64,000 nucleotides of DNA from Prorocentrum cordatum (lineage: Eukaryota; Sar; Dinophyceae; Prorocentrales; Prorocentraceae). This document shows positions 13,445-58,439 of this stretch, in pieces. Every line of letters begins with the position of its first letter. Position 1 is the first letter of the stretch. The notes beneath the pieces are model-generated. The model had not been told where the DNA came from and searched no databases. It worked only from the letters and a program-made list of their open reading frames with translations. The DNA is taken from positions 1 through 64,000 of the forward strand of contig CAUYUJ010016152.1 in assembly GCA_963575745.1 (NCBI GenBank). Direction: 5' to 3'. Both the position numbers and the translations under genes were made by a program.

Positions 13445-13544
13445 NNNNNNNNNNNNNNNNNNNNNNNNNNNNNNNNNNNNNNNNNNNNNNNNNNNNNNNN
13501 NNNNNNNNNNNNNNNNNNNNNNNNNNNNNNNNNNNNNNNNNNNN
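13445..13544. other. Assembly gap of 100 N
   Basis: Exactly 100 undetermined bases, the customary placeholder for a gap of unknown length. Sequence to the left is GC-rich satellite; sequence to the right is AT-richer coding DNA. Whatever joins them is not known, and the 5' part of the element on the right is lost in it. Confidence 0.98.
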
Positions 13545-13545
13545 T

Positions 13546-14292
13546 ATTGAGTCACAGGCTATCCGCAATGGAACAAAAGTGCATTTCTTCAATATCTTGG
13601 AGCTATCTTCAGTCAAACATGAGGAACTTCCTCCTGATCTACGTAAATTCAAGGGCAGAGTGGTGGTTCAGGGCAATACAGGCAAAGATGAAACTGGTTT
13701 GGCCGCCATATTCGCCGACGCCGTTTCCAGTGCTTCGCATATAGAGGCTTCCAAACTTTGCGATGCTACTGCGTTATTACCGCAATATGCGGGAGAGCAA
13801 AGTGACGCACCTGGAGCTTACACGCAGGCATTATTATACGGCGACGGACGAATTGATCCAGTTGATACCTGGATTACTATACCTAAATGGCGACAACCGA
13901 CATCATGGTCAAAATGCAAGAACCCAGTGTGCCGACTGCGATTGGCACTATACGGACACCCTTTCGCAGGTGTCTTTTGGGAACGAAAATGCCGTACATG
14001 CTTGGAAAGCGTCGGTTTCGAGCCTATTTCAGGATGGGAATGTGTATGGAGACACAACAAACTGGGACTGATACTTTCAGTATATGTGGACGATTTTAAA
14101 TTGGCCGTCCCAGCTCATAATCTACAGACTGGCTGGGATTATATTCGTAAAAGCGGTATCGATTTGGATCCACCTACTCCATACTCACAATATTTGGGTT
14201 GTGGACAACAAGCATATGATGTACCGCAGAGCATCTTCGACAAAAGAATGTCCACAATACGCCCTATGCTACCTGCACACAATGAGAAATAA
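13546..14292 (+). CDS. Copia-type reverse transcriptase, 5' partial
   Basis: The frame is already open at the gap edge, so the true start is upstream. The fingers region shows KFKGRVVVQGN near 13650. Motif A appears as SDAPGAYTQA with the Asp codon at 13804. The Copia-type motif LRLALYGHPFAGVFWE lies at about 13935-13983. Motif C is LSVYVDDF with both Asp codons at 14089-14094. DPPTPYSQYLGC follows, fitting the thumb. All RT catalytic aspartates are therefore present. The segment ends at TAA 14290-14292, and the same frame continues directly into RNase H-linked sequence. The product would copy element RNA into cDNA. The stop may be a mutation, a readthrough site or an assembly error. Confidence 0.75.
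   Translation: MESQAIRNGTKVHFFNILELSSVKHEELPPDLRKFKGRVVVQGNTGKDETGLAAIFADAVSSASHIEASKLCDATALLPQYAGEQSDAPGAYTQALLYGDGRIDPVDTWITIPKWRQPTSWSKCKNPVCRLRLALYGHPFAGVFWERKCRTCLESVGFEPISGWECVWRHNKLGLILSVYVDDFKLAVPAHNLQTGWDYIRKSGIDLDPPTPYSQYLGCGQQAYDVPQSIFDKRMSTIRPMLPAHNEK
14290..14292 (+). other. Isolated in-frame TAA in Copia pol
   Basis: The codon series AAT GAG AAA TAA TAC AAT keeps frame on both sides, and sequence upstream (RT thumb) and downstream (basic linker, RNase H) belongs to one polyprotein. Confidence 0.8.
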
Positions 14293-17200
14293 TACAATAC
14301 GGCAAAACACGTTCGTGGTATTCGACATGACATGCTTGGTTTTACAGATCAGTGCATTGAGCGGTACCTGGAACGCGCCTCCAAGCGCGCCCAGGGAACA
14401 GGGTCACGTCGGAAACGATCCGACTCGCCGAGGGCTTCGCGATCCAAATCGCCATCCTCCTCCGGGTCGGTCGCCAGACCTACTAGTGTGCTCAACGCAC
14501 GGACAAGATCATCCAGCCCAGCAAAATCGGTCGACACAACTTCTACCAACACCATTCCCGCCACATACCATGATCTACCCGACGCAGAGACCCCTGGCAT
14601 AGAGGACACCTCCTTCACTGAGTCCGACTATTCAGACGAGGGCGTTCTCGGCCAGGACGCGGCAAGTGTTCTCATGAAGATCCTGTACTTGGCACGTTGC
14701 TGTCGTTTCGATCTTCTACATCCGGCATGTATGTTGGCCAGAGAAATTACCAAATGGAATACTACATGTGACAAACGTCTACATCGGTTGATATGCTACA
14801 TCAAAACGACGCGTACACATTGCTTACACGGATGGATAGGCGATTCGTCAGACAAGTTATCCATCATGCTCTTCACTGACGCCTCGTTCGCTGATTGCAT
14901 TACATCTTCCAAATCCACTACCGGTGTTTTTGCTGCGCTTGTTGGACCCAATACGTTCTTTCCAGTCAACGCTGTATGTAAGAAACAAACGGTTGTTTCA
15001 CATTCATCTATTGAATCGGAGATCGTTGCTCTCGATTCCGCACTACGACTGGAAGGGTTACCACTACTATCATTCTGGGAAGCCGTGGTGGGAGTTGCCA
15101 AAACATGCAAAGAGAAGAATACATGCCTGAGTAGCCATCGACACGTTGACCCGGCGATGTGTCCTACATTGGCAGCCAAAAAGAAGCGTAAACCATCGCC
15201 TCGCAAGGCACCCCCTACTCGGGGATCTTCTCCTAGCCGTAGGCAACTACCGCTAAATACGGATTTGCCTACGACTCCAAAGAGACGTACGATATCCCAT
15301 GAAGGTACCGTACTACACGTGGATCCAGAGCCAGCTCCAGAGATCAGTGCACCGAAAGTACGACTTATCGTCCTGGAGGATAACCAGGCCGTTATTAAAA
15401 TTGTCCAAAAGGGACGTACACCAGCACTTCGTCATCTTCATCGTACTCATCGTATCAATCTGGATTGGATATGCGAAACATGCCAAATTGAACATATCGA
15501 GCTTAAATATGTAGGAACAAAAGAGCAGATCGCAGATATGATGTCCAAACATTTCGAGACCAAGAAAGCAGACCTTTGGAAGGACCTCTTGGAACACTCG
15601 CTTATTTTTCCTGTTACTCCGATACAATGTCCGCCGATACGAGGGCCTCGGAGGCCCGACGGTTTACCTCATGAAGCGGAACCCCCTAAATTGAATGGAT
15701 GCCCAGAAATATGCAAGATATTGCTGACGGAAAAAGAAAGATGGGGCGATGTAGGATCAGAATGCGGATTTCAGTGTGTTGGGCAAGCTAGCCATGAGGG
15801 ACTATGTGCATGCATGTACCACTATGGCGTACCAGCCGCAGATACTGCGTCGCGCACACCTCGTTCACGCGCACGTTCACCGCACGGTAGACATCCCCGC
15901 CATCCTCCCTCACCTCAACGAGATGCAGAGAGAGTTAGGACATTGATTATTCGTTCACACCGCAGCAATTTTACGACTCGAGCTGCAAAGCTTACAAGCA
16001 TCCTGTTTGCCGCTTGCGAGGCGAAAGTAAGGGAGATCGGTTCTAATCCCGACCCCTCCATCCACGAGATGGATCAGGCACAGCCGCTCAACCTCGTCGG
16101 CTGGCCCATCGGCTACGACAAGGAGTACGACCCGAACGCCAGGGACGATGACCGCGTGGGCTTCGCGTACCGCGCTCAAACTGGTCGTCCTCGTGATCCC
16201 GAAGATGGTTACATATACATACATCAACGGCGTGCCGATCGGAGCGGAGAATTTGATCTCCGCGTACCCGACGAGTCTTCTATCCGTGAACTTGCCCGCT
16301 TCGCGTCCGTCGAGGCTAAGAAATGGGCCAGCACTGAGAGTGGATCCGTCGGCGGCAACGCCAACTACGAGTACAACACGTTCACAGCTACGCCGTGGCT
16401 ATCTTTCATGCGTGCTATGTGTATGATTTCCAGCCTTTTCAATCGTAATCCTTCAGTACAAGACAGTGTTCGTGGACTACATGATCATTTGAATGCGACG
16501 ATCCCAGGATCAGACCGCAAATGTCCACCATCAATCTTTACTACAATGATACTGAAGACGGAGTGGATGATGATTCACAACGATTGGTCCAAAATTGGCA
16601 GTGCAGTTCTGGGACAATACACCGAGGACAGCGTTACGGATACGCAAATCTATTACAACAATGGTCTGAGTGCACCATCCGATGTATACCAGAATGGATT
16701 GGTAACGCCATGCTATGCTCCTAAAATTGATCGTGCAATGGCCAAGCTACCTACTCGTCCACCTGGCATCGCCAGGACATCGGGTACATCTGGACACATC
16801 GGTCATATTGTCGAGGATAACTTGGCCACCACCACGAGAGCTTTTTCCGACCTTACCCAAACAAAGAAGTTCTGCCGCAAGCTTACTACATGGTTGACTG
16901 CGCGCGGAGGCTTTGGAAGTATCGGATCAAACTCCAAGACGGTGGCAACGCCATCCGACCATCCGAATGGTTGGGTGGCGATATTGGATGATCCACAAGA
17001 TACAGAGCGTACCTATCGTTGGACACCATACAACGAAGGCAACGACTTCTTCGGCGACGCTGCTGACCACATGGGTTCGAATGACCCTGGCATGACTCCT
17101 GGCAATGATGTTGACCCATTTGAGCTGGACCACGCAAAATACAGTGCTTTCTGTGGTGGTCGCTTGGTTTCTACCCTATTGTCAGACAATGGGTGGCACT

Positions 17201-18213
17201 CACTCGTACAAGAGGACTTGGGACTATTATTACATCATGCATTTGGGCCATCGGGTCATGCGTACAACTGGACCAACTTGTACACTGATTCAACATGGAT
17301 CATGCATCCGAAGAAAGGGGCTAAGGGTGCAAACCACAAGAAGTACCCCACTTTCGGCATCGACGAGCTCAACGCTGCCCGGAAGAGAATCGACCTCGCC
17401 AAAGCATCAAATACTGCTCTTGTACCGCTATTCATGCCGTGCCTTAACCGCGCGGAATACATGGGTGGCGCTACTCTTGAGCACCTGTCGACCATGATCC
17501 GCGACGACATCATGATGTGGGCATTCTCTTTTGGCAATTACAGGGAATGGTTCAGACATAATGACACGCCGATCGGTCAAGATTGCGTTCTCTTGCCTGA
17601 AACTGGTTATGAGGGCGTACGATACGGAATGGAGGAACTACGCAAGCAACGTTTCGAGAAAGAGGAAAGCCGTATCAACGCTCTTCTCAACAATCAGTTT
17701 GAGAACACTCTCGAGCAGCGCTATATGATCAGGAAGATCCGCGAAGCCAGAGGCCTCATGTTTCAAAGCGACAACGCTTCCATCAAGAAGTGGCGCGAGT
17801 TGAACGAGACCATCTGGGAATATTGGGCCAATGATTTCCCATCATCCATAAAACAAAGACACTATCACAGGGGACTCAATGCCATGGTAGTATGGAGCGC
17901 GAACGACATCGCATGTGCCAATCCTGGACAGAACACCATCGACATGCGCCGACATCACAGTCGTGCTCCTACCAACGTACACGAGCTCCAAAAGATGGAA
18001 TGTGAGGGCGGCGTCCCGACGCTCATGCCCGTGCACGTGCTCGTGGACGTCTCACGTTTTGTCGATGTGATGCAGTATTTTCGCTGCCCCACGGTCATGG
18101 GACTTGGAAAAGCAGCGCAATGGGGCGTACACCCGAACTTTGATCACCACACGAGCGACTTGATCACTATCATGCAGAACCGTGGTATCACTGTTCTTCC
18201 ATCCGACCATTGA
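14293..18213 (+). CDS. Copia RNase H plus long unknown extension
   Basis: A first ATG lies at 14332, but translation as part of the upstream polyprotein is equally possible. A basic Ser/Arg/Pro-rich linker (about 14365-14530) joins RT to RNase H. RNase H shows MLFTDASFAD (Asp codon 14878), SHSSIESEIVAL near 15000-15035, LEDNQAVIKI (Asp codon 15379) and KEQIADMMSKHF (Asp codon 15535), so the four acidic positions appear conserved. A second basic linker with KKKRKPSPRKAP at about 15178 splits the RNase H halves and could act as a nuclear localisation signal. Beyond 15620 the protein continues for about 860 codons. It has a Cys-rich patch at about 15700-15825 and no domain I can name. Confidence 0.65.
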   Translation, partial: YNTAKHVRGIRHDMLGFTDQCIERYLERASKRAQGTGSRRKRSDSPRASRSKSPSSSGSVARPTSVLNARTRSSSPAKSVDTTSTNTIPATYHDLPDAETPGIEDTSFTESDYSDEGVLGQDAASVLMKILYLARCCRFDLLHPACMLAREITKWNTTCDKRLHRLICYIKTTRTHCLHGWIGDSSDKLSIMLFTDASFADCITSSKSTTGVFAALVGPNTFFPVNAVCKKQTVVSHSSIESEIVALDSALRLEGLPLLSFWEAVVGVAKTCKEKNTCLSSHRHVDPAMCPTLAAKKKRKPSPRKAPPTRGSSPSRRQLPLNTDLPTTPKRRTISHEGTVLHVDPEPAPEISAPKVRLIVLEDNQAVIKIVQKGRTPALRHLHRTHRINLDWICETCQIEHIELKYVGTKEQIADMMSKHFETKKADLWKDLLEHSLIFPVTPIQCPPIRGPRRPDGLPHEAEPPKLNGCPEICKILLTEKERWGDVGSECGFQCVGQASHEGLCACMYHYGVPAADTASRTPRSRARSPHGRHPRHPPSPQRDAERVRTLIIRSHRSNFTTRAAKLTSILFAACEAKVREIGSNPDPSIHEMDQAQPLNLVGWPIGYDKEYDPNARDDDRVGFAYRAQTGRPRDPEDGYIYIHQRRADRSGEFDLRVPDESSIRELARFASVEAKKWASTESGSVGGNANYEYNTFTATPWLSFMRAMCMISSLFNRNPSVQDSVRGLHDHLNATIPGSDRKCPPSIFTTMILKTEWMMIHNDWSKIGSAVLGQYTEDSVTDTQIYYNNGLSAPSDVYQNGLVTPCYAPKIDRAMAKLPTRPPGIARTSGTSGHIGHIVEDNLATTTRAFSDLTQTKKFCRKLTTWLTARGGFGSIGSNSKTVATPSDHPNGWVAILDDPQDTERTYRWTPYNEGNDFFGDAADHMGSNDPGMTPGNDVDPFELDHAKYSAFCGGRLVSTLLSDNGWHSLVQEDLGLLLHHAFGPSGHAYNWTNLYTDSTWIMHPKKGAKGANHKKYPTFGIDELNAARKRIDLAKASNTALVPLFMPCLNRAEYMGGATLEHLSTMIRDDIMMWAFSFGNYREWFRHNDTPIGQDCVLLPETGYEGVRYGMEELRKQRFEKEESRINALLNNQFENTLEQRYMIRKIREARGLMFQSDNASIKKWRELNETIWEYWANDFPSSIKQRHYHRGLNAMVVWSANDIACANPGQNTIDMRRHHSRAPTNVHELQKMECEGGVPTLMPVHVLVDVSRFVDVMQYFRCPTVMGLGKAAQWGVHPNFDHHTSDLITIMQNRGITVLPSDH
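18211..18213 (+). other. Isolated in-frame TGA in the extension
   Basis: The frame remains open for 1,306 codons before and 1,841 codons after this TGA, and amino-acid character does not change across it. The next ATG in frame is not until about 18274. Confidence 0.8.
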
Positions 18214-21200
18214 GTGGATACGTACGACAGGGTTACCCCACAGGCTTGGCACGCCAAACAGAACAACCATAACATGGCAATGTTTACAACGCAATGCTGC
18301 GACGCAGTATGCTATCGCAATTTTTGCGCATTGATACAGTCTCTTCCTTCTCAGCCATATCCATTCAGGCCGCCATTGCTGACTTCTGTCACGGACAACC
18401 AGGCCTACACGCAGGCCAAAGAAATCATGGCAGCCTTCGACTTCAGAGAAAAGTTGACAAACGAATGGAAAAGAGACCTCAGCCTCACAACGTTGATGAC
18501 ACAGACGGCAAACGAGACGGCTCATTGTGCGTGGATGGCGTCATGTGCCGAGGGCACATTGCCGGCATCACTGCCTGCCGAGACGGGCGACACGACTGAG
18601 CCGACTCCTGGAAGGTCGACACGTACGCCAGCACCTGACCCTGGCGATCCTGACCAAACTCTTCCTGATAATGATCCATGGGTTATGGCATACAACGACT
18701 TATTCCAGTACCTTATGTTGTTGATCAAAGAATACCTTGGGGCTTGGGCATCTTGGCATTCTCTTGAGAAAGATGAACTTCTAGAACCCAAGATCGTCAA
18801 AACTGTTGAAGATGCACATGCAGTTACTTGGGTTGTATTCGAGCAATTCTTACATCAGATCAAAGACTTGGATGGAGACGATAATGCGACCAAATCAAGA
18901 CTCATTGCAGAAGAAAACAGATTGTCTTCTCACCGCATCGGCCCAGCTGCCGAGAACGAGAAGAACATCGAGGCATGCAAAACATTCTTCAAACAGAATG
19001 CACTGGATCGAGTTGCTTTGGGTCATGACCCTAATGTTCCTACAGCCGTATGGAGGGCAGCTGATGACACAGCACAGCCAGCCCCACCAGGCCCATTGCC
19101 TGATCCACTGCAACCTGGACCGCAATCGATCAAAGCGTCGCAACCATCGACTCCAGAGCCTAAAGCAGAACAACAACCAGCAGATCAGCTCCCAAAAGCT
19201 GAGGCGGTACCGATCCCTGATGACGGCACCGACCTTGAGGCAATGGAGCTGGAGGCAACTCCTGCTGAGGAGGAGCCTTCTCCACATGAGATGAATATGT
19301 TGTCATGGCAGGACAGTTGTGAGCGTTCCATGCACGAGGATACCAGCAAGCTCGGGATCTTCGATAACTCATGCACTATTCGCGAATGGAAGATACAGTA
19401 CGGCGTCAAAGATGAACATCCATACATGTGCCCAATGTTGCGGGGCACGAAAGCGACCAATGGATTTGCCTGCATCGAAGACCGAGAGTGGTACGAGCAG
19501 CTACTGCATGATGATAGTGTAATTGCTCATGCGCCTGACATTGCACAATCTGGTTGTTTCCCAGAATGGAAATGTATACCATTACCACATTACGACGATG
19601 TACGTTATGGTCCTGAGCTAATTGATGAAAAATGGCTGGGAACAAACAAATACATGAGCAAAGACATCACGACTATGTTACGCCATGAGATTCACTACAA
19701 AAAGTTTTGGATCAACCAATTTCATGACAGACGTATTAATATCTGTGACAAAACAACAAAGAATGATTGGAAGATCCCAAGCAATTGGAAATCATTTAAA
19801 GAAATGGTTGAATGGAAATTCCGAGATCGCAAAGAAAGACACAATGGACCATCCATGGAAGCGGCAGTGGCACATTTCAAGAAAGACGGTGAAAATGATG
19901 GATACACCGATTGGAACGACTACTATCCGATATTCATTATTCGTGCGTTCCAGAAGCATATTGACCCTCAGAAAAACAGAATCGAGATATACGCCAAGCC
20001 GATTCCTGACGGAGGTGACCCCAGCACTTTTGACTGGAACAGCGTTATTGCTATTCGGTGCGTTGGTGGTCACAGTTGTGTCAACCCAACTTCAAAGCCA
20101 TGGAACATGGGATGGGAGAGCTTACAGTGGACAGATGTCAAATATCTCCATCATGGCACAGCATCCCGTGCCTGGAAGAACATATTGAAGACAGGGATCA
20201 TTCCTGGATATGTTGAACCACATTCTCAGAGAGACAGCAATTACAAGCCATCGCAGCGATCTGAGGCATTCTTCAGTTCTAGCACATATTTGAACAATGT
20301 TCAAAAGAACCCACATACTTCAGTGGAATCGTACAAGTTCAACAGCTACAAGAACGAAGTCGAGCTGGTGATCAACATGGAAATCGCCACAAAAGCAGGT
20401 TGCAGATTTTGGTTGGGTGCTCAGGGCGCTATCATGACTGAGGACGTGGTACCCGCTGCGGCAATTATTGCAATTCGCCGCCTCAAACCACACCACATGC
20501 ATGGCCAGCAGTTGCGGCCAGACGGCGACCCATGGGACTACCCGCCATTGGCAGCCAGAGAGCCATTGAGCAAGTACGAGATTTGCGCCTGCCTCCCTGG
20601 AGAGCTTATTGACGACCCACCTGGATTGGCACCTATCGACCCCGACCACGACATGGAGCCTCCAAGGACGACGCCAGCATCAGCACCCTCGGCCAGGCCG
20701 GGGGGAACCCCTGCTGGCCGTACATCCGCAGAGGACGCCTTGGATGAGCAAATAGTACGCGCTATGATTCAGGAGACCAATCACAAAGCAGATGATAAAG
20801 AATGGTTAATTGCATTGTCACATTGTCGTGAAGCTCTTCGACCAATCACATCAAAGATCATGCAAAAAGATTGGGATCGTCGTCCTGCATTTAACGATGT
20901 TCGAATGGGCGACTTCATTGTCATTAAGAATTGGGGTTCTACCAAATGCTTCCACTACGACAACCATTGGCCCAAAGGCAATCACAATACCAAGATTGCC
21001 ATGTCCAAGGGACACATATATGGTCCAATCATCCATTTCGGCATCTTCGACAAGTTCTTTGCGGTACAAGTACCTATTCTCAACTACGGTTTACGATGGG
21101 TAAATATCTGGTATAATGACAAAAGCATGCCCCTCAAGGGCGTTGTATTTGCATTACCGATTCGTATCGAAGAACACGCCATCGATCCAACATGGATAGA

Positions 21201-23739
21201 GACTGCCCTGAAAGGCCCGACATCATGCAGCGAGGAGATACTGCAGCACAAGGTTAGCGGCAGCTTACCATACCTTGGAATGCCTAGCATCCATAGACCA
21301 CGTATTCCGCGTACACCACCAAGAAGGCCCGCTCCACGGACACCTGATCCAGACGAGCTGGTGGCCACACCTGCCGAGGACAACGCTCAGACGGGCGACA
21401 TTCCTCAACGGGGTACAGCATCATCGCATGATCCACTGATCACCGTAATCGTGGACATATCAAATATCGTTCTTACTGCAGATGAGAAAGCTGCGAACGA
21501 CAACATGAAGGCAGACCTCTCGGCAGACATCCAAGCAGAAGAGCAGATCGAGGCAAGCATCCTCGATAACATCATTGATCCGCCATCGAATTTCCTTGAT
21601 CATCCAGACTACGACCCCGACGAGGATTCAAGATGGATTAGACAGTCTGATGATTGCCGCGTGTATTGTTGGACATCGGCGTTAGTGGTGGATTCGCCTA
21701 TGATCAAGATGAGGCAGATCATCGAGATACACAGTGGCGCAGACAGAATCGTAATGGACAAAATTCAGTCACATTTACAGTTTGAAATTCGATTTGGATC
21801 GAAAGCATGGAATGCGGAGTCATATCAATTGAACTACAATCATACCCACAAGTGGGCACGTGAATTGCCCAATTGTGGTGCAGATCATTTCTTCAAAAAG
21901 TTGGTACACTACCTCGACCCAGAGACTATCGAGGAGTCGACCACAGGCATCTTTCAATGGATTTCCAAAGTATACCAGAACATCTTGAAATATATTATTG
22001 TGGAACTACCAGATTTCGCCAAGGAAGTCATCCATGACAACCATCCTGCACTTCAGGCATTGCGTGACCTATACAAAAATTGTACTGCGACATACGGTGA
22101 TCCAGAGTTTCCTGCGTGGGAAGAGCTGGTGGAAACACCTGCTGCGCCTCGAAAGGACGGCGCTGAGCAGGATATTCCCCAGGACCCAGGCAGCGTTGCG
22201 TCTGCAGCTCCCGATCAGGAGACTATGGTACGTATCATAGCCGAGCAGACGGGACTCAAGCGCGAGGAGGGCGACAACGAGGCTACCTTGCAGAAGCAGG
22301 CTCGCCGTCTTCGTGAGGAGAACGTATGTCATGGCGGTACTGAGGATACCGACAACGTCAAGGTAGAGCACAAAGGACTGCCAGGGGAAAGGTTGTCTCG
22401 GATCGAGATCGAGGGTTTAAGCAGATCGATCGCTTCCAGACCAAACACCGAGATCAATCGTGAGGCGATCAATCAGATCGGTCAGAGCCTCGCTCGCGGG
22501 CAGGACACCCGCTGGGGATCCCGCGATCACCTGACTTCGGCAGGGGCCCCCGAGACGATCTTGCATCCCATACCGCTCTGTAACAATTGCGGTCGAGATC
22601 TGTCCCTCGGTATCGTCACAGGTGACGGCACACTCTGTGATATATGTTGGCAATGCACTGTGGCCGTAGGCGCCACAGGTAAGAGCACCGCCACACAGAG
22701 TGACCTCGCGTACCTCCATAAGTTGACGAACTGGATCAAGACGACGTTGTCCGAGGACCAGGTCGCGAGATATATGAAGGATGGCGCACATGTCATTATG
22801 ACGGGTGCGCGATCCCCCATAGGCACAGAGAAAGATCAGTTGCGGAGATTGGCCAATACGTCCAAAAAGAGGTATCAGAAGTGGGTCGAAGCCGGTAGCC
22901 CGCCTGCACACGAATGCAGATTAATGGGCGAATCCGAGGACGACCGACCTCTGTACTACCCATACGCCAATCTCATTCAACGCTTTCTCAACGACCTCAG
23001 ATTCCATCATCAGATGACAGGAGCCCGCGTTAATGTCGGCAAGAAGCCCTGGAGAGTCGAGGACATGCGCGACGCGTGGGACATCCTTGACGTCAGTATT
23101 AGGACAGGACAGGCTGGTCGGAGAAAGTGGTGGCTGAACGAGGGACGCATTGACAGGCAGACGCGGCAGGCGCGCGGACTGATTACGGTTTCTCTCCCTC
23201 GAAGGGACGGAACCCGTGAACAGTTCACCCAGCGCAAGCTTGCCGCGATTGCCAACGAACTGATAGGCTCCCTCGATCCGCCACACACTGACCAGAGGGG
23301 GGGTCGTACAGGGATGATAACCGATCCAGATACACACTCCCGACAGTCCGATGACGCCATGGAGCCGCGGCCGCCGCCGCGGCCGCCGCCGCGCCCTGCT
23401 CCTGGCGACGCCGCTGCATCCAGCGCCTCAGGCGCAGAGGACTACATGCCCGCGATGCCGCGCGCCAAGAGAGCACGTACATCTGATTACGCTGCTTACT
23501 GGCGCCACAAACTCGAGGACAGCGATTGGGGTCTTCGATACTGGAGTTATTACATCAAATGTTGGATCTACATTGCGATCAACAACGACGAGTATGTGTA
23601 CATCCAGGATATCACGCACAACGATTGGTTCCGCAACTGGATCCCGAGGACCACTTGGGAAACGTTTACGACAAGCTATGTGACGTACAACGGCCAGAGG
23701 GTGTGGGACCGCAGGTTCTACAAGGACGGCGACGCGTAG
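18214..23739 (+). CDS. Element polyprotein C-terminal part with Tpt1/KptA-like domain
   Basis: 1,841 codons plus no frameshift, starting right after the TGA. Residues are counted from 18214. Residues about 1-430 are unassigned and include Pro-rich linkers. Residues about 480-760 form a Tpt1/KptA-like RNA 2'-phosphotransferase domain (see separate entry). The middle part, about 840-1040 and 1130-1310, is well-ordered looking but unrecognised. Residues 1456-1481 contain a C-x2-C and C-x2-C-x2-C cluster (CNNCGRDL ... CDICWQC) that may bind zinc. A short basic run PRAKRARTSD near 1746 could be a nuclear signal. The C-terminus is aromatic-rich and ends at TAG 23737-23739. If not part of a retroelement it could be a host gene, but continuity of frame with RT/RNase H argues for one polyprotein. 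Confidence 0.6.
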   Translation: MDTYDRVTPQAWHAKQNNHNMAMFTTQCCDAVCYRNFCALIQSLPSQPYPFRPPLLTSVTDNQAYTQAKEIMAAFDFREKLTNEWKRDLSLTTLMTQTANETAHCAWMASCAEGTLPASLPAETGDTTEPTPGRSTRTPAPDPGDPDQTLPDNDPWVMAYNDLFQYLMLLIKEYLGAWASWHSLEKDELLEPKIVKTVEDAHAVTWVVFEQFLHQIKDLDGDDNATKSRLIAEENRLSSHRIGPAAENEKNIEACKTFFKQNALDRVALGHDPNVPTAVWRAADDTAQPAPPGPLPDPLQPGPQSIKASQPSTPEPKAEQQPADQLPKAEAVPIPDDGTDLEAMELEATPAEEEPSPHEMNMLSWQDSCERSMHEDTSKLGIFDNSCTIREWKIQYGVKDEHPYMCPMLRGTKATNGFACIEDREWYEQLLHDDSVIAHAPDIAQSGCFPEWKCIPLPHYDDVRYGPELIDEKWLGTNKYMSKDITTMLRHEIHYKKFWINQFHDRRINICDKTTKNDWKIPSNWKSFKEMVEWKFRDRKERHNGPSMEAAVAHFKKDGENDGYTDWNDYYPIFIIRAFQKHIDPQKNRIEIYAKPIPDGGDPSTFDWNSVIAIRCVGGHSCVNPTSKPWNMGWESLQWTDVKYLHHGTASRAWKNILKTGIIPGYVEPHSQRDSNYKPSQRSEAFFSSSTYLNNVQKNPHTSVESYKFNSYKNEVELVINMEIATKAGCRFWLGAQGAIMTEDVVPAAAIIAIRRLKPHHMHGQQLRPDGDPWDYPPLAAREPLSKYEICACLPGELIDDPPGLAPIDPDHDMEPPRTTPASAPSARPGGTPAGRTSAEDALDEQIVRAMIQETNHKADDKEWLIALSHCREALRPITSKIMQKDWDRRPAFNDVRMGDFIVIKNWGSTKCFHYDNHWPKGNHNTKIAMSKGHIYGPIIHFGIFDKFFAVQVPILNYGLRWVNIWYNDKSMPLKGVVFALPIRIEEHAIDPTWIETALKGPTSCSEEILQHKVSGSLPYLGMPSIHRPRIPRTPPRRPAPRTPDPDELVATPAEDNAQTGDIPQRGTASSHDPLITVIVDISNIVLTADEKAANDNMKADLSADIQAEEQIEASILDNIIDPPSNFLDHPDYDPDEDSRWIRQSDDCRVYCWTSALVVDSPMIKMRQIIEIHSGADRIVMDKIQSHLQFEIRFGSKAWNAESYQLNYNHTHKWARELPNCGADHFFKKLVHYLDPETIEESTTGIFQWISKVYQNILKYIIVELPDFAKEVIHDNHPALQALRDLYKNCTATYGDPEFPAWEELVETPAAPRKDGAEQDIPQDPGSVASAAPDQETMVRIIAEQTGLKREEGDNEATLQKQARRLREENVCHGGTEDTDNVKVEHKGLPGERLSRIEIEGLSRSIASRPNTEINREAINQIGQSLARGQDTRWGSRDHLTSAGAPETILHPIPLCNNCGRDLSLGIVTGDGTLCDICWQCTVAVGATGKSTATQSDLAYLHKLTNWIKTTLSEDQVARYMKDGAHVIMTGARSPIGTEKDQLRRLANTSKKRYQKWVEAGSPPAHECRLMGESEDDRPLYYPYANLIQRFLNDLRFHHQMTGARVNVGKKPWRVEDMRDAWDILDVSIRTGQAGRRKWWLNEGRIDRQTRQARGLITVSLPRRDGTREQFTQRKLAAIANELIGSLDPPHTDQRGGRTGMITDPDTHSRQSDDAMEPRPPPRPPPRPAPGDAAASSASGAEDYMPAMPRAKRARTSDYAAYWRHKLEDSDWGLRYWSYYIKCWIYIAINNDEYVYIQDITHNDWFRNWIPRTTWETFTTSYVTYNGQRVWDRRFYKDGDA
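19651..20490 (+). other. Tpt1/KptA-like RNA 2'-phosphotransferase domain
   Basis: The family transfers an internal 2'-phosphate from RNA to NAD+. Visible motifs, numbered from 18214: MSKDITTMLRHEI with Arg490-His491 (codons 19681-19686), matching the S-K-x-L-x-x-x-L-R-H start; IRCVGGHSC with Arg615 and Gly-His-Ser 619-621, matching IRAxQGHS; LHHGTASRAWKNIL with His647, the NAD-site HGT; Arg682 before AFFSSS; and INMEIATKAG followed by GAIMTEDVVP at about 738-747, matching the last strand. The Arg-His-Arg-Arg set seems complete. The spacing between Arg491 and Arg615 is longer than in compact bacterial KptA, implying an insertion. Assignment rests on motif order, not on a profile search. Confidence 0.7.
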
Positions 23740-24196: not shown

Positions 24197-24445
24197 TTTA
24201 CATGTTGCCTTGGTGCTCAGATCTTCTTTCTCCGCCTACCTTTGTCTCATTCTTCTCCTCCCTCGAGTGCCGAAGCGTGTTGGGGGGCGCACCGAGGGGG
24301 CGGCAAAGTCCGCCTGGAGAAGAAAAAGAGACCCAAGGTATCTCTTCTTACCTCAACTTGCAACTGGGCTCCGCTGACTTTTAGCCCAGCTGCCTTTCAG
24401 ACTTAAGGTAAAGGAGTTCAGAGGTTACGGATTCCATCCTGCTGA

Positions 24446-24479
24446 TCCCGAGTCCTGCCTTCACGGGCGGGATTCGGGA
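24446..24479 (+). other. 14-bp hairpin with two G-T positions
   Basis: TCCCGAGTCCTGCC pairs with GGCGGGATTCGGGA around a six-base loop. The two non-Watson-Crick positions are G-U in RNA, so the fold is better as RNA than as DNA. Confidence 0.6.
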
Positions 24480-24682
24480 CGGGGGGTGTGTATGGAACCC
24501 GTGTAATACCCTCATATATACTCCTTATCCTTACCTCTCCCGCACCTGGCCGTTTGGGCTCAGGTACTGAGTTTGAGCGATCGTACCTTGATCGCTTGGG
24601 AGGGAAAGATATCCATCTATCCCTCCATCTCTCTACCAACGGATCAGGGGTTCTGTACTCTTGTACTTCAACCCCATACACA

Positions 24683-43581: not shown

Positions 43582-44340
43582 CTGCTACGTCAGACTGGTG
43601 GTCTCACACTTGTAAGCGCAGGCCATGCCATATTTACTTACGTCCATGATGAGCGATTCGCAAGTGCATGCTGGACATGGAATCGCTGCGATGGCTGGGT
43701 AGCTGCCATGGGCGTTATGTTTCGCATTTGGGGTGGTAGGGATTGCGACGGCATCTGCAAGTGGATGCGTAGACAACCGCGAGACTACGTAACGTGGTTG
43801 CTCCTGCACATCGCGAATATGACTGACAATTGGGGTGCCAAGAAAGCCCGCCTCCAGCTGAAGCGCTCGCGCGACGATGAGGATGCCCCGATACTGTGGA
43901 TCAGAGCCGCTAGTGGGCACTCGTTTCCTGGCACAGTATGCCCAGTATCATTGTGCATTCCAGTGACAGCTCTAGGCGGCCAAACTTCCGATGTCACTGA
44001 CGATGCCCCCAAGTTCTTCGCGCGCGGAGCCAGGTGGGCATGCCTGCCGGGCATCCTCGAGCGCGGGCTGTCCTGTCGTGCAGAGCACTACCCAAGAGGA
44101 CAGCACGTCCGGCAGTTCGTGCACGGATGCCCGTACTTGCCCGGGGACTCCGCAACCCGTTGAGGCCTCAGGGCCGACGCTGACCTATACATTTTCATAT
44201 CTATCCCGCGTCTACTGCAAGATGGAGCAAAGGTGTGGCGTTCTGCTAAGGATCTTGTTCTGACGGAAGGCTTCAAAGGGGTCACCCCGATCAAGTGCTT
44301 CATGCAGCTTGCGTTGGGTCCCGAAGGCGAGTTTAGAGAA
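43582..44340 (+). pseudogene. Second Tpt1/KptA-like domain, degenerate
   Basis: The same frame reads CDGWVAAMGVMF (the G-W-V element of the N-lobe), KKARLQLKR, and ILWIRAASGHSFPG with Arg at 43903, a strong match to IRAxQGHS. Then comes FFARGARWACLPGILERGL, where the NAD-site HGT has become Arg-Gly-Ala (44023-44031), and RGQHVRQFVHGCPYLPGD. After a TGA at 44161-44163 the frame continues ADADLYIFISIPRLLQDGAK and DLVLTEGFKGVTP (44251-44292), the C-terminal signature of the family. The lost His and internal stop indicate an inactive copy. The Leu-Arg-His start is not found. Confidence 0.72.
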
Positions 44341-46323
44341 GTCTGGCACAATCCCCCGTACTTTTATGACGCCAGCTACGAGCTTCGGGAATTGGCCGAT
44401 CACCATGGACGACGTCGCCCTTCAGAACAGCTGGTTCGAGCCCGAAGCGCTTTTCGGTGTCGGGGCGGCCGCGTCCATGGGATATTTCGGCGCAGAAGAG
44501 TCCGCCAACGGTCAACCGACCGACGTGAGCCTGCTAATGGATGCGGGTACTCCCGTTGACATAGCCACACCAACGAAAGCTGGGCCACCGGCAGCTCTGC
44601 CGACCGACGCCAGCTCATCTTCCTGGATGACGCCACCACCCAATGATGTGTCTACTCTGTGAGATGTGTTCGCTAGTTTCGACCCTTGGGCAGCCGCCCT
44701 GAACAACGTGCCAGCAGGGCCGCCCATCAGCTTCGGTCCGGCAAGGCCACGATCAAACGCTGGCTCTACTAGGTGCGAGCCCATGGCGCTCGGTCAGCCA
44801 AGGTCCGAGTCGAGCCTCGCGTCAGGGGCGGACGCGCTCAATGGCTTACAAGCAGCATCGATGAGCAGCGAAGACCTCATGCAACGCATGGCCAATCCGC
44901 GCCAGCGCCCAGACCTGGCCGCCGCCATTAGGGCGACAACGCCCGTCGGCAACCCACGCCAACGCCAGGCCACTAGCACCCCAACAAGCTCGCCGACTGC
45001 AGCGCCAAAAACAGCCCAGCCTGGACATTGGCAGTTGGCGCTTGAGCAGCAGAGGAGCATGCCACAACAACATCGGACAGCCATGTCTGAGATGAGGTTG
45101 CTCGGAGTGGATGTGACCGATCGGAACAACTGGACACCGCCCTGGAAGTGGCGCCCAAACGCGAGTCCATCGGCAGACCATCCAGATAGGCCGCCATTTG
45201 TTCCAGCAGTTGACGCACATCCAACATACCTTCCACTCCAAGTGCTGGCCCCGCCACATGGATCAGCCGCTGTTTCCCGAGCATTTTGCAGAGATCAGCG
45301 GAACGCCAATGGTGGGCCAAGTGCTCCAGAACCACATGGCGCGGGATCTGGCGGATGATTTCTACCGCTTGCAGGCGGCGCGTGTCCCAGGTGCGGGAAT
45401 TTTTCCGCGCGTGGGTTATCACCCATCACCGAATGGCCCAGATACGATTGCGCAACCACTTGCGCTGGATATCAACCCATCTGCAAGCACCCCGCGGACA
45501 TAGTGGCACGATATTCATGCGATGGCGCAAGCAACTATGCAAGCAGCGGAAGTAGCCGGCAGGGCTGCGCGCGACAGAGACGCAAGGCGCATGCAACACC
45601 CGACAGCAGCGCCCAGCGCGGACGCGCGCAGACTGCGAGGTCGACCCCGAGGTCCAGGGACGGACCACCGCCGTCTGCGCGCGAGGCGTCGGAGCCCACG
45701 CTGCAGCGGCAAAGGCGGACGCACTCGCAGTGCGCCGCGTGCCTCAAGTCTTTCGCACTGCGCTGGAACATGTGGAGGCTGAATGTTGTCGCCCATATCA
45801 CGGAGAATGAATGCTGGGACCGAAACGCTCGGGTGCACGTGTCAAGAGGAATGGCAGGGGCCGGTGTAGTGGCCCCATGTGCCATTTGCAGGGGGCCTGG
45901 TATCATCGCGGCGGAGTATCCCCATGCGGGACACGTTGACGCAGCGAGTTCAGCAGCAGTTGCCACCCAGCAGGCTCAGGAGATCTCTGACCTGCGCAGG
46001 AGGCGGGATGCAATCTTGATGTCGATTTACCAGACAAGCTCGGCCACGAGCAGCCCGATGCCAGCACCATTGCCAGCACCATCGCCAGTAATGGCCACGC
46101 CAATCCCGCTCCTACATGATGCGGAGACACCTGCAGTGAACGCCCCGTCGATGAAAGACGCGGGAACACCTGCCGCCCGTGCAATGCCTTATCCCTTCAA
46201 CAACGCACTGCTGGGCCGCCTAGAACAAAAACAACAGGCGGGTTCAAGACGCCACTGCAGCCACGTTCGGCCACGTTCAGGAGGGTGGATCCCCCATCGA
46301 ACGATGCGATATTGTAATGGGCG
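44341..46323 (+). pseudogene. Gag-like region, multiply interrupted
   Basis: Frame 2 carries MDDVALQNSWFEPEALFGVG from 44405, a TGA at 44660-44662, then FASFDPWAAALNNVPAG and a Gln/Pro/Ser-rich stretch to about 45270. Another frame reads FPEHFAEISGTPMVGQVLQ near 45270-45330. From 45503 a Ser/Arg-rich part leads to CAACLKSFALRWNMWRL and CAICRGPG (45733-45895), two C-x2-C pairs that may bind zinc. Then comes a helical stretch AQEISDLRRRRDAIL followed by Pro-rich repeats (PMPAPLPAPSPV). The layout resembles a Gag with a disordered centre. Confidence 0.4.
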
Positions 46324-47030
46324 GTGGCTGCAGAAAGGGCAAGGTATGAGCAGCCCACAGCGTTAATGCTGCAGGACAACGAGGTTCGAACCACTGGCGA
46401 AGCAACGCACGTGCTGCCTGAGCCGCTCAATGCCAGGAGGCACGCCGACTGGGCAATGGAGTGTGAGCCTGCCAAAGTGGCAGAGGTGAGTGCCTTTAAG
46501 GGCAACTGGGGTCCTGCGACTCTTAACCTGTCGAGGAACCGGTTCATCGTCCACCAGGGGGGGCTCAAAAGGCAGATGGGTGCGGAAGCATGCGCAGTCT
46601 CGATTCCAACCGGTATGCAGCACGCGCGTTCAGCAGGCAGGCTCACAAGTCTGATTCTTCGCAAACGCAGTATGTAAGTGGACATTGGGTCGAATATCGA
46701 TATCATCGGAACCAACGCAGCACGAGAGGTCGATGACCAATCCCGCCAGCATGGACACATGCCGAAGGTCAGGAACTTAGAAAGGCTGCTGTGCGTCAGC
46801 GGAGTTGGCAGTGGCGCAGCCAAATGCCAGACCCTGGGGGCATTCAAGAGCGCGCGTTGGCACCAACATCACAACTTGCCACCGACCGCGAAGGTGGGCG
46901 CTTTTGTGGGTAGCGTCGCGGATCTGGCTCAGACCTGCCCGCCATCCTTTGCCTTGCCCCCATGCAGTCGGAGAGGGCAATCTGGAGGAGGGCAAGGAAC
47001 GCATTATCTTCCCAGGTTCGCACACGTAAG
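46324..47030 (+). pseudogene. Retropepsin-like aspartic protease, broken
   Basis: The key motif VDIGSNIDIIGTNAAR lies at 46678-46725, matching the D-[ST]-G active site with Asp-Ile-Gly-Ser. It is followed by LERLLCVSGVGSGAAKCQ near 46770-46825. A TAA at 46675-46677 directly precedes the motif in the same frame. Upstream, NRFIVHQGGLKRQMG is in frame. The protease would mature the polyprotein. The Thr/Ser to Ile change and the stop argue against activity. Confidence 0.5.
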
Positions 47031-47898
47031 AAGTGCAGCATGGCAAAGGCGCGCAGGTTCTGACGCTGGCCATCCGGCCATCCCATGCTCCAAGTAGGAG
47101 GGGGGCGCTCCTGGAACAGAGGGCGCGTCAGCAGCGGAAGCTTTCACATATGTCAGTGCAGGTGGCTCCTCCCAGCGCGCGACATAGGCCGACCGTGGAC
47201 AAGAGTCTCGGGCATGCCAGGGCACTGGCGAGTGCAACCGCGAGACGTTGAGCTGTTTCATGGATCAGGCTGTGGATGGCGCTGTCGCCATGATGGTCAG
47301 CTCGACAATGGGCCACTGGCATCGACTCGATCGCCCGATGAGTCGCAGCGAGATGACGCGCGCGCTCCTGGCAGGCATCCACTACGGAGTGAGGGAGGCA
47401 GTTGACAAGTGGGATCCAGACCCCGTGGCGAACCTCTTCCATCCACATCTGGGGAGGCGAGGGGCTGGCTCACAGGGGGCCACAATGTATCAGGGCGGCC
47501 GCGCCCAGAGGAGATCGGGGCAACATCCCGATTGCGGAGGACATGCCACAAGTCTTCCACATCGGAGACCCTAGCTCGTCATCGCACGACGCTGCCGAGC
47601 AGGGCACGAGTGGGGGAAGGATATATTCGAGCGACGAGACGCTGGGCATCCTGCCCCGCGTCGACGACCCCCGTTGACGGGGGCAGGCGGGCCTTTTGGC
47701 CAAGCCTGCTTGCCGCCCTGATGGAGGCCAGAGGCGCGGGCGCGTGCCTCGCGGCAGAAACATAAGCCAGGGCGCGCGCCCGACAACAAACGCTGACTCC
47801 CATCGCTCCAAAGCGTTGATTGTGCAAGATATACGCACGACTGCCGCCGAATTGCGCCGCCGTGCCAGAGCTATGAACACAGTTGGGATGTTGGGAGT
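47031..47898. other. Unassigned region, possibly 3' remnant of the preceding element
   Basis: A frame at 47248-47450 (AVAMMVSSTMGHWHRLDRPM) looks ordered but is not recognised. Nothing else supported. Confidence 0.3.
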
Positions 47899-48639: not shown

Positions 48640-48818
48640 GAGAAGCGAGCTCAATAGTTGGATGGGGCGAGCGGAGACGACGGCCAGACAGCAGAACGCC
48701 CAGCTTCAGCAGCTGCAGCAGGCGCTCCAGCAGCTGACGGCCGCGGGGGGCACCGCGGCGGCGACCCCAGTGCTAGCGAGGAGCGAGGAGCGCCGGAAGT
48801 GGGGCTTCATAGCTGCTG

Positions 48819-49400
48819 ACGAAGCCAGCGCAGTTCGAAGGCAGCGAAAGGGCGTGGCCCGCGTGGTCGTTCAAGTTGCTGGCGTACATCGCGACGCCCG
48901 ACGACGACCTCTACCAGGAGATGATCACAGTCGGCCAGACGGCCGAGGTGGACGTCACCAACGACGCGTTGGACCTGGCGCATCCAGCGCTCGCCGGCGC
49001 GTCTGGGCAGCTGTGCCGCATGCTCGTGTTGCTCCTGGAAGACAAGGCGTTCACCATGCAGCGGCCGATCCCGAAGGGCGAAGGACTGTTGGCGTGGCGC
49101 AAGATGGTGAAGGAGTTCGAGCCAGACCAGCCAGCCAGCGTCAGCTCTGGGTCGGATGAGGAGGCTGATGGGGCGGGCGTTCGGAGCAGCGACGATCGAG
49201 ACCGACGTGAACGAGTTCGACGCGGTAGTCCAGACGCACGGGCGGGCGGCGGCGCGGTGCCCAGCGACATCAAGGCGGCGATCCTCATCGCGGGGATCCA
49301 GGACAAGGACTTGCAGCAGTGGCTGATGGACAACGCCGACTGCCTCGGGGACTACGACGGGATCGCGAATTACGCGAAGACACACCACCTGACGAACAGA
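48819..49400 (+). pseudogene. Copia Gag domain
   Basis: Begins with PAQFEGSERAWPAWSFKLLA (from 48825), the common start of this Gag family, then ALAGASGQLCRMLVLLLEDK, EGLLAWRKMVKEFEP and, in the same frame, DIKAAILIAGIQDKDLQQWL. The usual middle portion is shortened and Ser/Asp/Arg-rich, so an internal frame change may be present near 49140-49255. After 49390 the coding sense moves to other frames (PDEQKTFRDAAEV, PMDIGSLAATLA). It would form the particle shell. Confidence 0.6.
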
Positions 49401-49439
49401 AGACGTTCAGGGACGCAGCGGAGGTCACCACGGCGGACG

Positions 49440-50335
49440 ACAGCGGGCCAGCACCGATGGACATCGGGTCCCTTGCGGCGACGCTGGCAGCGGGCCAGCA
49501 CCGATGGACATCGGGTCCCTGGCGGCAACGCTGGCAGCGGTGACGATGGCCGTAAAAGCCATCAAGAAGGGCAAGGGCAATGGGGGAGGGGGAGAGCAAA
49601 GGAAGCGACGGCGGCAAGAAGGGATGCGGACAGCTCTACAACGGAAACAAGGACTCCCGACCCCAGCACCAGGCGCAGAAGCACGGCAATGGCAGAGATG
49701 GCAATGATGGTCAGCGCGTCGAGACGCGCACGTGCAGGAGGGGCCATCAAAAGGGCCACCTGATGAGAGACTACCCTGGCAAGACTACGAGAGTGAACAG
49801 CGCAGCCAGCAAGACGATCGAGCTGAAGGGCGCGTTGAACTTGGTTCAGCTGCTCGCGCCCGCGACGGGCGCAGCAGCGTCGAGCGCGCCGTCCGTGGCG
49901 CCGAGCAGCGTCGCGCAGGCGCGTGCCAGCGCCGTGCAGCTGTCAACGGCGAGCTTAGATGCTGCTCCGAGAGGCGGCAGCTCCAGCTCAGGCGCTGGTG
50001 GGGCAGCGGGAGACGCCGCGTCCGCCATCCAGTGGGCGCTGCGCCTGGCGGCTCAGGCCGCTTATCTTGTGAATCGGACCTCGATGCTGCGAGCTCCACG
50101 GGCTGGCGGCCCAGGAGGCGACAACGACAGCTACGACGAGTACATCATGGTGGACTCGGGGGCCTCCAGAGCGACGTGCCCACGCAGCCATGCCCCGAGC
50201 GTGGCGACGCGTGAGCCTGCCCAGCACAACGACATCCGCGCCGCGGACGACAGGCGCGTGAAGCACTGCGGCGAGAAGAGCGTGCAGTACGACTTTCTGG
50301 ACGGCTCAGACGTGCACGGAGTGGGCATCACTCCC
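49440..50335 (+). pseudogene. Zinc-knuckle remnant and retropepsin
   Basis: A 54-bp stretch encoding PMDIGS is tandemly repeated at about 49456-49520. A frame from 49580 holds CRRGHQKGHLMRDYP (about 49732), a CCHC knuckle in which the second and last Cys are lost. Further on the same frame has DEYIMVDSGASRATCP with the catalytic Asp codon at 50152, the D-S-G-A site of a Copia protease, and CGEKSVQYDFLDGSDVHGVG. The frame moves near 50335. Confidence 0.65.
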
Positions 50336-50339
50336 CATC

Positions 50340-51830
50340 ATGGGGGCCGCCGAGGCCTGCGACAACGGCCACTCTGTGCTGTTCCCGGCGGGCTCGTACA
50401 TTGTGCCCGCGGCGCTCAGCCTACCAGAGGGCATCGCCAACGCGCCCCTGGTGCGACAAGACAACCTGTTATGGTTGCAAGGGCGCGTCGCGGGGGCCGC
50501 CGCGACGACATCAGACGCTGCGGCTCAACCCAGTCGGCAGCAGCTCCCGCGGCGACCGAGCAGCCCCAGCGCGCGGGCGCCGCTGGCAGAGGCAGACCCA
50601 GACGAGGTGCCAGCCAGGGCGAAGCGGGTGCCACCGCTCCCCAGCCCGGGGGAGGTCGACAAGCACGAGCTCGCCGACCTGCCACCGCGAGGCTGGTGCG
50701 ACAAGTGTGTGCCTGCCAAGGCGGCAGACGATCCGCGCCGACAGGGCGGCGGGTCTGGCAGTATCGACGGGGTGCAGATGGACTACCTGCAGCCTGGCGC
50801 CGTGGTCGCAGCAGAGGAACTGGCGGCCTCAGCCAGCAGCGAGGCTTGGTTGGCGTCAGCGGACCAGCAGATCGACCAGGCCGTCCTGGTGCCGCAGCTG
50901 GTGGGCCCAGTCGCTGGCGACGGCGTGGAGGTGCCGCTCAACGCGCTGGTGGTGGCGCATCGGCAGTCTACTGCAGTTCGCGCGGTCTTGGGGCCGAAGG
51001 GTATGCGCCCCTTCATGTCCATTGCAGCGAGTGCAGTTATCGACGCGTGGGGCATCGCGGAGTGCATCCTGCGCACCGACCAGGAGCTGGCAGGCCATTC
51101 GCTGGCCGAGCAGATCTCCGAGGAGCGGAAGCTGAAGGGCTTCGAGTGCCAGCTCACGGCGGCGCCTCCCAGGAGTCATTCTTCGATGGGCTTCATTGAG
51201 GCCATGGGCGACTGGGTGGCCAAGCAGGTGCGCGTGATCAAGCTTTAGCTCGAGTCGGGCATGGGCGCGCGTATCCCCGTGTTTCACGGGGTCATGCCGT
51301 GGGTGATCGGGCGCGCTGGGTGGCTCCTCACACGGTTTGCCGTCGGACAGGCCTCTGGCAAGGCGGCCTGCTGCGTCAATCGGGGCATGCCGTGCCGGGG
51401 GGATGTGGCCACGCGCGGAGGGGTTGCGTGGGCCCGAGTGCCAGGCGACCGCGCTCAGAAGGCAGAGGCCCAGTGGCGCTTGGGTGTCTGGCTGGGCAAG
51501 ACCGAGAGGAGCGACGAGCACCTGGTCGGTGGGTCGCGACAGACCAGCCGCGTCCGCGCGATCGGGGGGCAGCCGAAGGAGCGGAGGTTCAACGTGGACG
51601 CGCTGAGCAGCTTCGCGGGCTTGCTTGGGGACCTCCAGTCCAAGCCTGAGCGCGCGGACACAGCAGCAGAGCAGCCCCGGGGAAGCGCCGAGCCCCGCCA
51701 CGGCGACAACGTGGCGAGGGCGCGACAGGCGCAGGCACAACAGCGCCAGGCCGAGGAGGCGCTGCTCCAGCGGCGGAAGAACCAGCGCGCCCGCCTCCAG
51801 GACCTCTGGACGCTCCGCCAGGATCCCTAA
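50340..51830 (+). pseudogene. Copia integrase with internal TAG
   Basis: The zinc-binding pre-integrase end reads HELADLPPRGWCDKCV (50664 onward). The core has Asp in VQMDYLQ (codon 50781), Asp in RTDQE (51078) and Glu in GFIEA (51198), giving a D-D-E triad with 39 residues between the last two. A TAG at 51246-51248 follows VRVIKL. The same frame then continues LESGMGARIPVFHGVMPW, LLTRFAVGQASGKAA and WRLGVWLGK, the normal C-terminal part, to a stop at 51828-51830. Spacing between the first two acidic residues is about 98 residues and includes a diverged middle. Confidence 0.7.
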
Positions 51831-58048: not shown

Positions 58049-58439
58049 TTGCCCAACCACGACATTTCCAGACAACCACGGACAAGCCTCGCCGGTGCGC
58101 CAGCACCGGCGGAAGGAGCACCCGCACCTACTGCTGCCGCTGCGCCCGCAGCGGCACCAGACGACCTCTTTGACGATGTAGCTGCGCCAGCAGAGCTACC
58201 GCCAGCTCGACAGAGACCGCGGGCAGAAGCACGGCCGCGTGCGCCTCTCCCCTCACGCAGAAATCCCAAGGTCACCACAGTGGGCGCCAGCAGCTACGAC
58301 ATGACAAGAGGCGCACGCAGTGGCTCTGGGGCTGGCAGCTCTTCTGACCCCCCGCGTGTCGCGGGACGTCGCGAGCGAGAGGGGAGCGGCGCGGCCCCGC
58401 TTCCTCCCCCGCCTCCAGCGGAAGCGCGGCCACGTGCAA

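Follow-up and report, generated by a model that had tools for sequence, protein, structure and literature searches.

Can a retrotransposon encode, as part of its own polyprotein, an RNA 2′-phosphotransferase of the Tpt1/KptA type, the enzyme that completes tRNA splicing in cells? This question is raised by a 64,000-nucleotide stretch of Prorocentrum cordatum DNA (referred to below as the window), in which the original prediction had placed a Tpt1/KptA-like domain at 19651..20490, within a Copia-type polyprotein and in the same frame as the reverse transcriptase (RT) and RNase H. The motifs do lie at this place. The domain belongs to the Tpt1/KptA family and is best explained as permanently built into the polyprotein of a giant Copia-type element, probably a LTR retrotransposon. 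Between an assembly gap and the stop codon at 23737-23739 there is a single reading frame, as had been claimed, but the window copy is not intact, being divided into three pieces by two in-frame stops (Table 1).

Table 1. Features annotated in the window (Cth, Clostridium Tpt1)
Feature	Position	Strand	Basis or remark
Assembly gap (N)	13445-13544		5′ part of the element lost in the gap
Copia-type reverse transcriptase (RVT_2), C-terminal part	13546..14289	+	PF07727, E 6.2e-7, 29.7 bits, cut-off 31.6
In-frame TAA stop, window copy	14290..14292	+	
RNase H region	14860..15590	+	DASFAD ... EDNQA ... ADMMSKHFE by eye; limits approximate
In-frame TGA stop, window copy	18211..18213	+	
Polyprotein C-terminal tail, Tpt1 domain inside	18214..23739	+	1841 codons and stop
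Tpt1/KptA-type RNA 2′-phosphotransferase domain	19606..20523	+	Residues 465-770 of the last frame piece
Tetrad Arg-His (= Cth Arg18-His19)	19681..19686	+	Alignment A3; roles PMC6333775; R 19681, H 19684
K-x-R motif, last codon (19978-19980) the third tetrad residue (Cth Arg68)	19972..19980	+	K and R in 47/47 rows
HGT NAD+-binding motif (Cth His101-Gly102-Thr103)	20152..20160	+	Alignment
Fourth tetrad residue, Arg (Cth Arg121)	20257..20259	+	Alignment
Probable 3′ LTR, 196 bp, TGTGTATGG...CCATACACA	24487..24682	+	Ends by eye
Decayed second Tpt1 domain, family-B-like element	43753..44364	+	tblastn 28% identity, E 1.5e-13

The two stops are taken as damage of the window copy because other copies run open: one reads through the region of the first stop, and in three the frame stays open for 5,671 codons (about 17 kb), a length which may count N as open (1,499 codons were read in one of the three). 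On the strength of these copies, a changed genetic code for TAA and TGA was rejected. The RNase H region contains a low-complexity insert, seen by eye, and is placed by the three segments listed in Table 1, which we take to be RNase H motifs; a Pfam scan of 14293-16500 gave no match, RNase H included. The probable 3′ LTR has inverted ends and is directly preceded by a G-rich tract (by eye).

The identity of the domain is supported by profile searches. Against PF01885, a check set beforehand, the isolated domain scores 31.5 bits (E 2.2e-7), above the curated cut-off of 26, and the whole 1841-aa open reading frame (ORF) falls just below it (23.9 bits, E 4.8e-5). The profile was found, at E 0.01 or better, in all 10 members scanned of family A, which comprises the window element and its copies; these members were drawn from 30 loci. 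A Tpt1 HMM made without family A gives the domain 25.8 bits, against 10.4 for the top scorer among 5,000 residue shuffles, and over the 791 six-frame pieces of the window this wider HMM finds the Tpt1 ORF at E 2.1e-5. With an HMM of prokaryotic KptA only, the domain scores 14.7 bits against 8.9 for the best shuffle, and the ORF ranks first among the same 791 pieces, but at E 0.05. In hhalign, the family A profile aligns with 29 prokaryotic KptA, hand-picked from the 80 loci returned of 345 relatives, at E 8.4e-8, the NAD+ lobe alone being aligned. Family B, a second group of Tpt1-carrying elements described below, reaches E 6.9e-17 in this kind of comparison; A and B matched against each other give no significant hit (hhalign, E 0.12). 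Judged from its sequences, the RNA lobe of family A is divergent and interrupted by insertions.

The window domain has no match among PDB sequences in phmmer, even at E 10, nor in an NCBIfam scan; the family B domain matches human Tpt1 (E 1.3e-10) and mouse Tpt1 (E 7.6e-9) among the PDB sequences. In a set of 5.8 billion proteins, where candidates were limited to 0.55-1.75 times the query length, searches with the 1841- and 1876-aa queries yielded no relatives at E 0.001 among 323 and 497 candidates, respectively. The family B domain alone was matched by two of 155 candidates, both from EukProt (P0001, P0002). These records are labelled Pyramimonas sp. and contain a family-B-like Tpt1 of 74% and 69% identity; they may reflect either a real wider spread or culture contamination. 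Among viral contigs, 59 pattern matches included no relative.

The Tpt1-like fold implied by the original prediction was obtained as a homologue-aided model. The predicted structure has two lobes, an RNA lobe and an ADP-ribosyltransferase lobe, at a mean pLDDT of 60 with Tpt1 homologues in the input alignment; family A sequences alone gave a pLDDT of 34 and no usable model. Target-normalised TM-scores in Foldseek are modest, ranging from 0.37 to 0.70 over 21 Tpt1 rows.

The genome searched comprises 4.13 Gb in 21,875 contigs. The dinoflagellate spliced leader is absent from the window and from 152 loci of this genome, a result that carries no weight for or against a dinoflagellate host. With the window domain, 135 places were scored out of 1,568 first-look candidates. 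Their identity is 94-100% throughout; 10 have a stop within the domain, and three hold the 5,671-codon frames. The Copia assignment made from the window is borne out by copy L072, which is 97.7% identical to window 13546-15372 over 609 aa and in which integrase is followed by RT in one open frame. A 4.5-kb piece of this copy is stop-free through integrase and RVT_2 to RNase H, the latter recognized by motif, which is the Copia order. Both Pfam matches lie slightly below their cut-offs: rve at residues 260-335 (E 9.2e-7, 29.5 bits, cut-off 32.6) and RVT_2 at residues 924-1109 (E 4.1e-6, 27 bits, cut-off 31.6). The integrase region also matches the NCBIfam IS481 transposase (E 2.2e-10), far below cut-off. 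The region of the 3′ LTR (24440-24682) was scored at 40 places in the genome. In 30 of these, among them the window, its end lies 5,023-5,093 bp from where a listed family A domain starts; the remaining 10 have no listed domain close by on their contig.

A search of the genome with PF01885, in which 150 rows were scored out of 2,877 candidates, revealed further carriers. The first seven rows (L001-L007) comprise Tpt1 genes of host type, fragments or a further gene group, with cellular Tpt1-type genes at L001, L002 and L005. L005 and L006 are alike and L007 is diverged, and together they form a Tpt1-type gene group distinct from the cellular L001 and L002; this may represent a gene that has been duplicated or is mobile. 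Scores in the other 143 rows range from 71.3 to 91.5 bits, in open frames of 287-4,482 codons, some of them stretched by N runs. They constitute family B, of which 27 fetched loci were compared mutually and the rest were assigned by score alone. One copy, read in pieces, has a 2,941-codon ORF in which a CCHC knuckle (19.9 bits, cut-off 20.8) is followed by Tpt1 at 84.8 bits, then by a RING finger at 34.7 bits (cut-off 27) and, by eye, a retropepsin-like motif. A second ORF starts after one stop, and RVT_2 matches occur further along (37.9 and 34.3 bits, cut-off 31.6); a Pfam scan of family B pieces gave no rve match. Tpt1 thus lies in the first ORF, ahead of the protease-like motif, in family B, and behind RNase H in family A.

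Direct repeats of about 252 bp bound all three family B copies considered (97.6, 99.2 and 98.8% identical), whose overall length is 15,957-15,965 bp, and each copy is flanked by a 5-bp target-site duplication (TSD): GGGGC, AGGTG and TGGTC. Because paired LTRs and TSDs are present in all three, family B is a LTR retrotransposon of about 16 kb, and it has probably been active recently. The LTR ends are not TG...CA. Immediately inside the 5′ LTR lies TGGTAGCGGAGCTGG (L015 4611-4625), a candidate primer-binding site, since it seems to resemble the sequence complementary to the 3′ end of a tRNA. The first ORF (L015 4372-9999, L016 3-3194) shows hydrophobic segments at its start by eye, and its RING finger, matched by PF17123 (34.7 bits) and PF13639 (28.4 bits), is an unusual cargo for a LTR element.

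In the Clostridium enzyme, Arg18, His19, Arg68 and Arg121 form an essential tetrad, and His101 and Thr103 contact NAD+ (PMC6333775). Four residues of the window domain align with this tetrad. In the original reading the third had been assigned to IRxxxGHS; the Arg of that motif (20056) is not a tetrad member, as the equivalent of Cth Arg68 lies in K-x-R, at 19978 (PMC6333775). An alignment of 47 rows was used, four from family A, 11 from family B, three host cellular Tpt1 and 29 prokaryotic KptA. R-H (whose placement depends on aligning across an insertion), K-x-R, GH, HGT and the last Arg are identical across all four groups wherever a row extends. Two incomplete EukProt rows deviate: P0001 is without the R-H columns and reads HGA for HGT, and P0002 has neither HGT nor the last Arg. 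The Arg at 20056 is conserved in 46 of the 47 rows; among host rows, one has Lys in the Cth Ser10 column and two have Thr for the Ser of GHS. The key positions are invariant in all 30 family A loci, window included (14 distinct proteins). They are also kept, in a domain without stop, in all 25 family B copies compared, L009 and L010 being excluded from the 27 hits because the fetched stretch ends inside their domain.

What is observed is homology, conservation of the catalytic residues, a large number of copies, two carrier families and selection on the family B protein. On this basis it is quite probable that an active Tpt1-type enzyme is carried and kept by these elements. The domain would presumably be made within the polyprotein, be active and use NAD+ on RNA ends. 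Because two retrotransposon families in one genome carry Tpt1, the data suggest that repairing RNA, or marking its ends, is important to such elements.

Ribonucleases leave 2′,3′-cyclic or 2′-phosphates, and a junction sealed by ligation of the fungal/plant type retains an internal 2′-phosphate. The domain, either released from the polyprotein or working inside it, would be near the element RNA and its tRNA primer, and would clear the phosphates or mark the RNA ends; phosphate removal at a sealed junction would let reverse transcription pass or prime. Tpt1 enzymes have been described to transfer the RNA 2′-phosphate to NAD+ (PMC6333775). Given an active enzyme, repair of element RNA or of its primer is rated the most likely role, in a tentative way. 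ADP-ribosyl marking or capping of RNA ends ranks behind it as a somewhat weaker possibility, action on host RNA or proteins appears improbable, and any other role would be somewhat more improbable still.

The best-surviving alternative assumes the same enzyme in another role, in which it would ADP-ribosylate RNA ends, either to cap or mark the RNA of the element or to attack that of the host, and would not repair RNA. The domain identity is shared with the preferred explanation and the two are not exclusive; as a replacement for repair it is considered rather unlikely. Although the tetrad residues for step 2, the phosphate removal, are kept and there is no sign of a host target, TRPT1 and bacterial homologues do ADP-ribosylate phosphorylated RNA ends (PMC6582358). 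In addition, in alignments read by eye, the equivalent of Cth Arg139, which contacts the NAD+ phosphate, is Lys in family A and a residue other than Arg in family B, leaving both families without the second phosphate-binding Arg. Runella Tpt1 with alanine at this position shows no activity when NAD+ is low, and its ADP-ribosylated intermediate builds up (PMC6333775). The change appears to be a real difference of the two families and may alter their chemistry.

It might also be supposed that the Tpt1 fold is retained purely for binding RNA or nucleotides, for instance during packaging, and that family A has little or no catalysis left. The modest profile score of this family, its divergent RNA lobe and the replaced Arg139 equivalent fit such a role, as does the Gly that takes the place of Gln in RAxQGHS, a position at which alanine is tolerated in Runella Tpt1 (PMC6333775). 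The retention of the tetrad and of HGT in every family A locus and family B copy compared (30/30 and 25/25) speaks against it, and this reading is regarded as decidedly unlikely.

Protein constraint is evident in family B, whose median dN/dS is 0.198 (range 0.077-0.555) for copies from high-scoring rows. These values refer to 270 usable pairs of 300, the pairs left out having saturated dS (those with L041) or dS ≤ 0.02; L040 differs from the other copies by dS > 1. In family A, across 30 loci, shared changes are 22 silent to 7 replacing in the domain, 28 to 23 upstream and 34 to 18 downstream, and the corresponding single-copy changes are 9 to 7, 45 to 72 and 47 to 98. Constraint in family A is given no weight because its loci were chosen as the best protein matches to the domain, which biases the silent/replacing contrast. 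A host Tpt1 gene piece caught once and merely carried along would have had a source in the cellular Tpt1-type genes of the same genome (L001, L002, L005). This passive carriage is nevertheless very improbable: two element families carry Tpt1, with 135 places scored for family A and another 143 found with PF01885 for family B (27 loci compared), and the family B protein is kept across dS > 1 between subfamilies. Least probable of all, the very long open frames could be those of host genes whose long products merely contain RT-like parts, but RVT_2 and rve matches and, in three of three family B copies, LTR pairs of 97.6-99.2% identity with 5-bp TSDs oppose it.

Whether Tpt1 was captured once or twice is addressed by a tree in which family B groups with host cellular Tpt1 (96/97) and family A stands elsewhere, on a branch of length 10; the tree program flagged long branches that come together and bootstraps that had not settled. 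The AU test does not reject A and B as one clade (p 0.39). From the sequences, two captures appear somewhat more likely than one. The two families also share a segment, residues 709-787 of L072 and 237-327 of L016:3198-8000, with 35% identity over 91 residues (E 9e-11). Since it lies between integrase and RT in A and near the start of the second ORF in B, shuffling between the lineages is possible. It may be proposed, with less than even confidence, that two separate Copia lineages each took up Tpt1, at different places of the polyprotein, as tRNA-primed LTR elements encounter RNA that is cleaved or 2′-phosphorylated and gain from a packaged NAD+-dependent RNA repair. If such uptake in two lineages is true, it would amount to a retroelement-encoded RNA repair system.

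The window holds two Tpt1-carrying elements, because a decayed family-B-like element is also present. Its Tpt1 domain has one internal stop, has lost HGT and shows no R-H by eye; an HMM scan of the window places this region at 43582-44556 (E 7.1e-6). By tblastn, a RING-region match follows at 45662-45997, and parts of the second ORF and RT at 55950-61320. About 9 kb of unrelated sequence separates the two parts of the element (43753-47081, 55950-61320). Gag-like and DSGA protease-like motifs seen by eye at 48813-51250 look like those of another Copia element, possibly nested inside the decayed one.

Among known systems, Tpt1/KptA/TRPT1 proteins (PF01885) have in common with the window domain the two-lobe fold (by the homologue-aided model), the R-H-R-R tetrad and the HGT and GHS motifs. 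The characterised members considered here are cellular enzymes, whereas the window domain forms part of a retrotransposon polyprotein; its RNA lobe contains insertions, and its contact to the NAD+ phosphate is, by eye, altered. Tpt1 is present in many organisms without a known route to 2′-phosphate junctions, which is described as an open question (PMC6333775). A retrotransposon that keeps Tpt1 by selection, apart from tRNA splicing, is a defined system in which to search for substrates. A few positive-strand RNA viruses also have KptA domains in their polyproteins, for which a function in RNA processing has been proposed (PMC9503650). Beihai picorna-like virus and Botrylloides leachii nidovirus are thus similar in having KptA inside the polyprotein of an RNA-based replicator, a likeness drawn from their description; they differ in being RNA viruses rather than retroelements, and the words "retrotransposon" and "retroelement" are absent from the main text of that report.

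With Ty1/Copia elements, family A shares the integrase before RT and an RNase H recognized by motif, and family B the RVT_2 match over cut-off, LTRs, 5-bp TSDs and a CCHC knuckle just below cut-off. Unlike them, the present elements are very large (about 16 kb in B, an open frame of about 17 kb in A), and carry the extra Tpt1, the RING finger (B) and long tails without Pfam matches.

No description of a Tpt1-bearing retrotransposon was found in the openly licensed literature searched, the nearest cases being those of PMC5890265 and PMC9289625. Few activities are known to have been captured by retroelements, and the present elements add to them an enzyme of RNA repair or RNA ADP-ribosylation. 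In Symbiodinium, LINE and DIRS elements carry a DNA methyltransferase (PMC5890265). They are likewise dinoflagellate retroelements with a captured nucleic-acid-modifying enzyme, and the capture is seen in more than one element type and domain order; their cargo is not an RNA enzyme, and the elements are not Copia. In orchids, 25-kb Gypsy elements carry an AlkB m6A demethylase that is active in vitro (PMC9289625). They are likewise giant LTR elements with a captured RNA-modifying enzyme, whereas their AlkB is encoded in a separate ORF, in a Gypsy background, and is a dioxygenase rather than an NAD+ enzyme.
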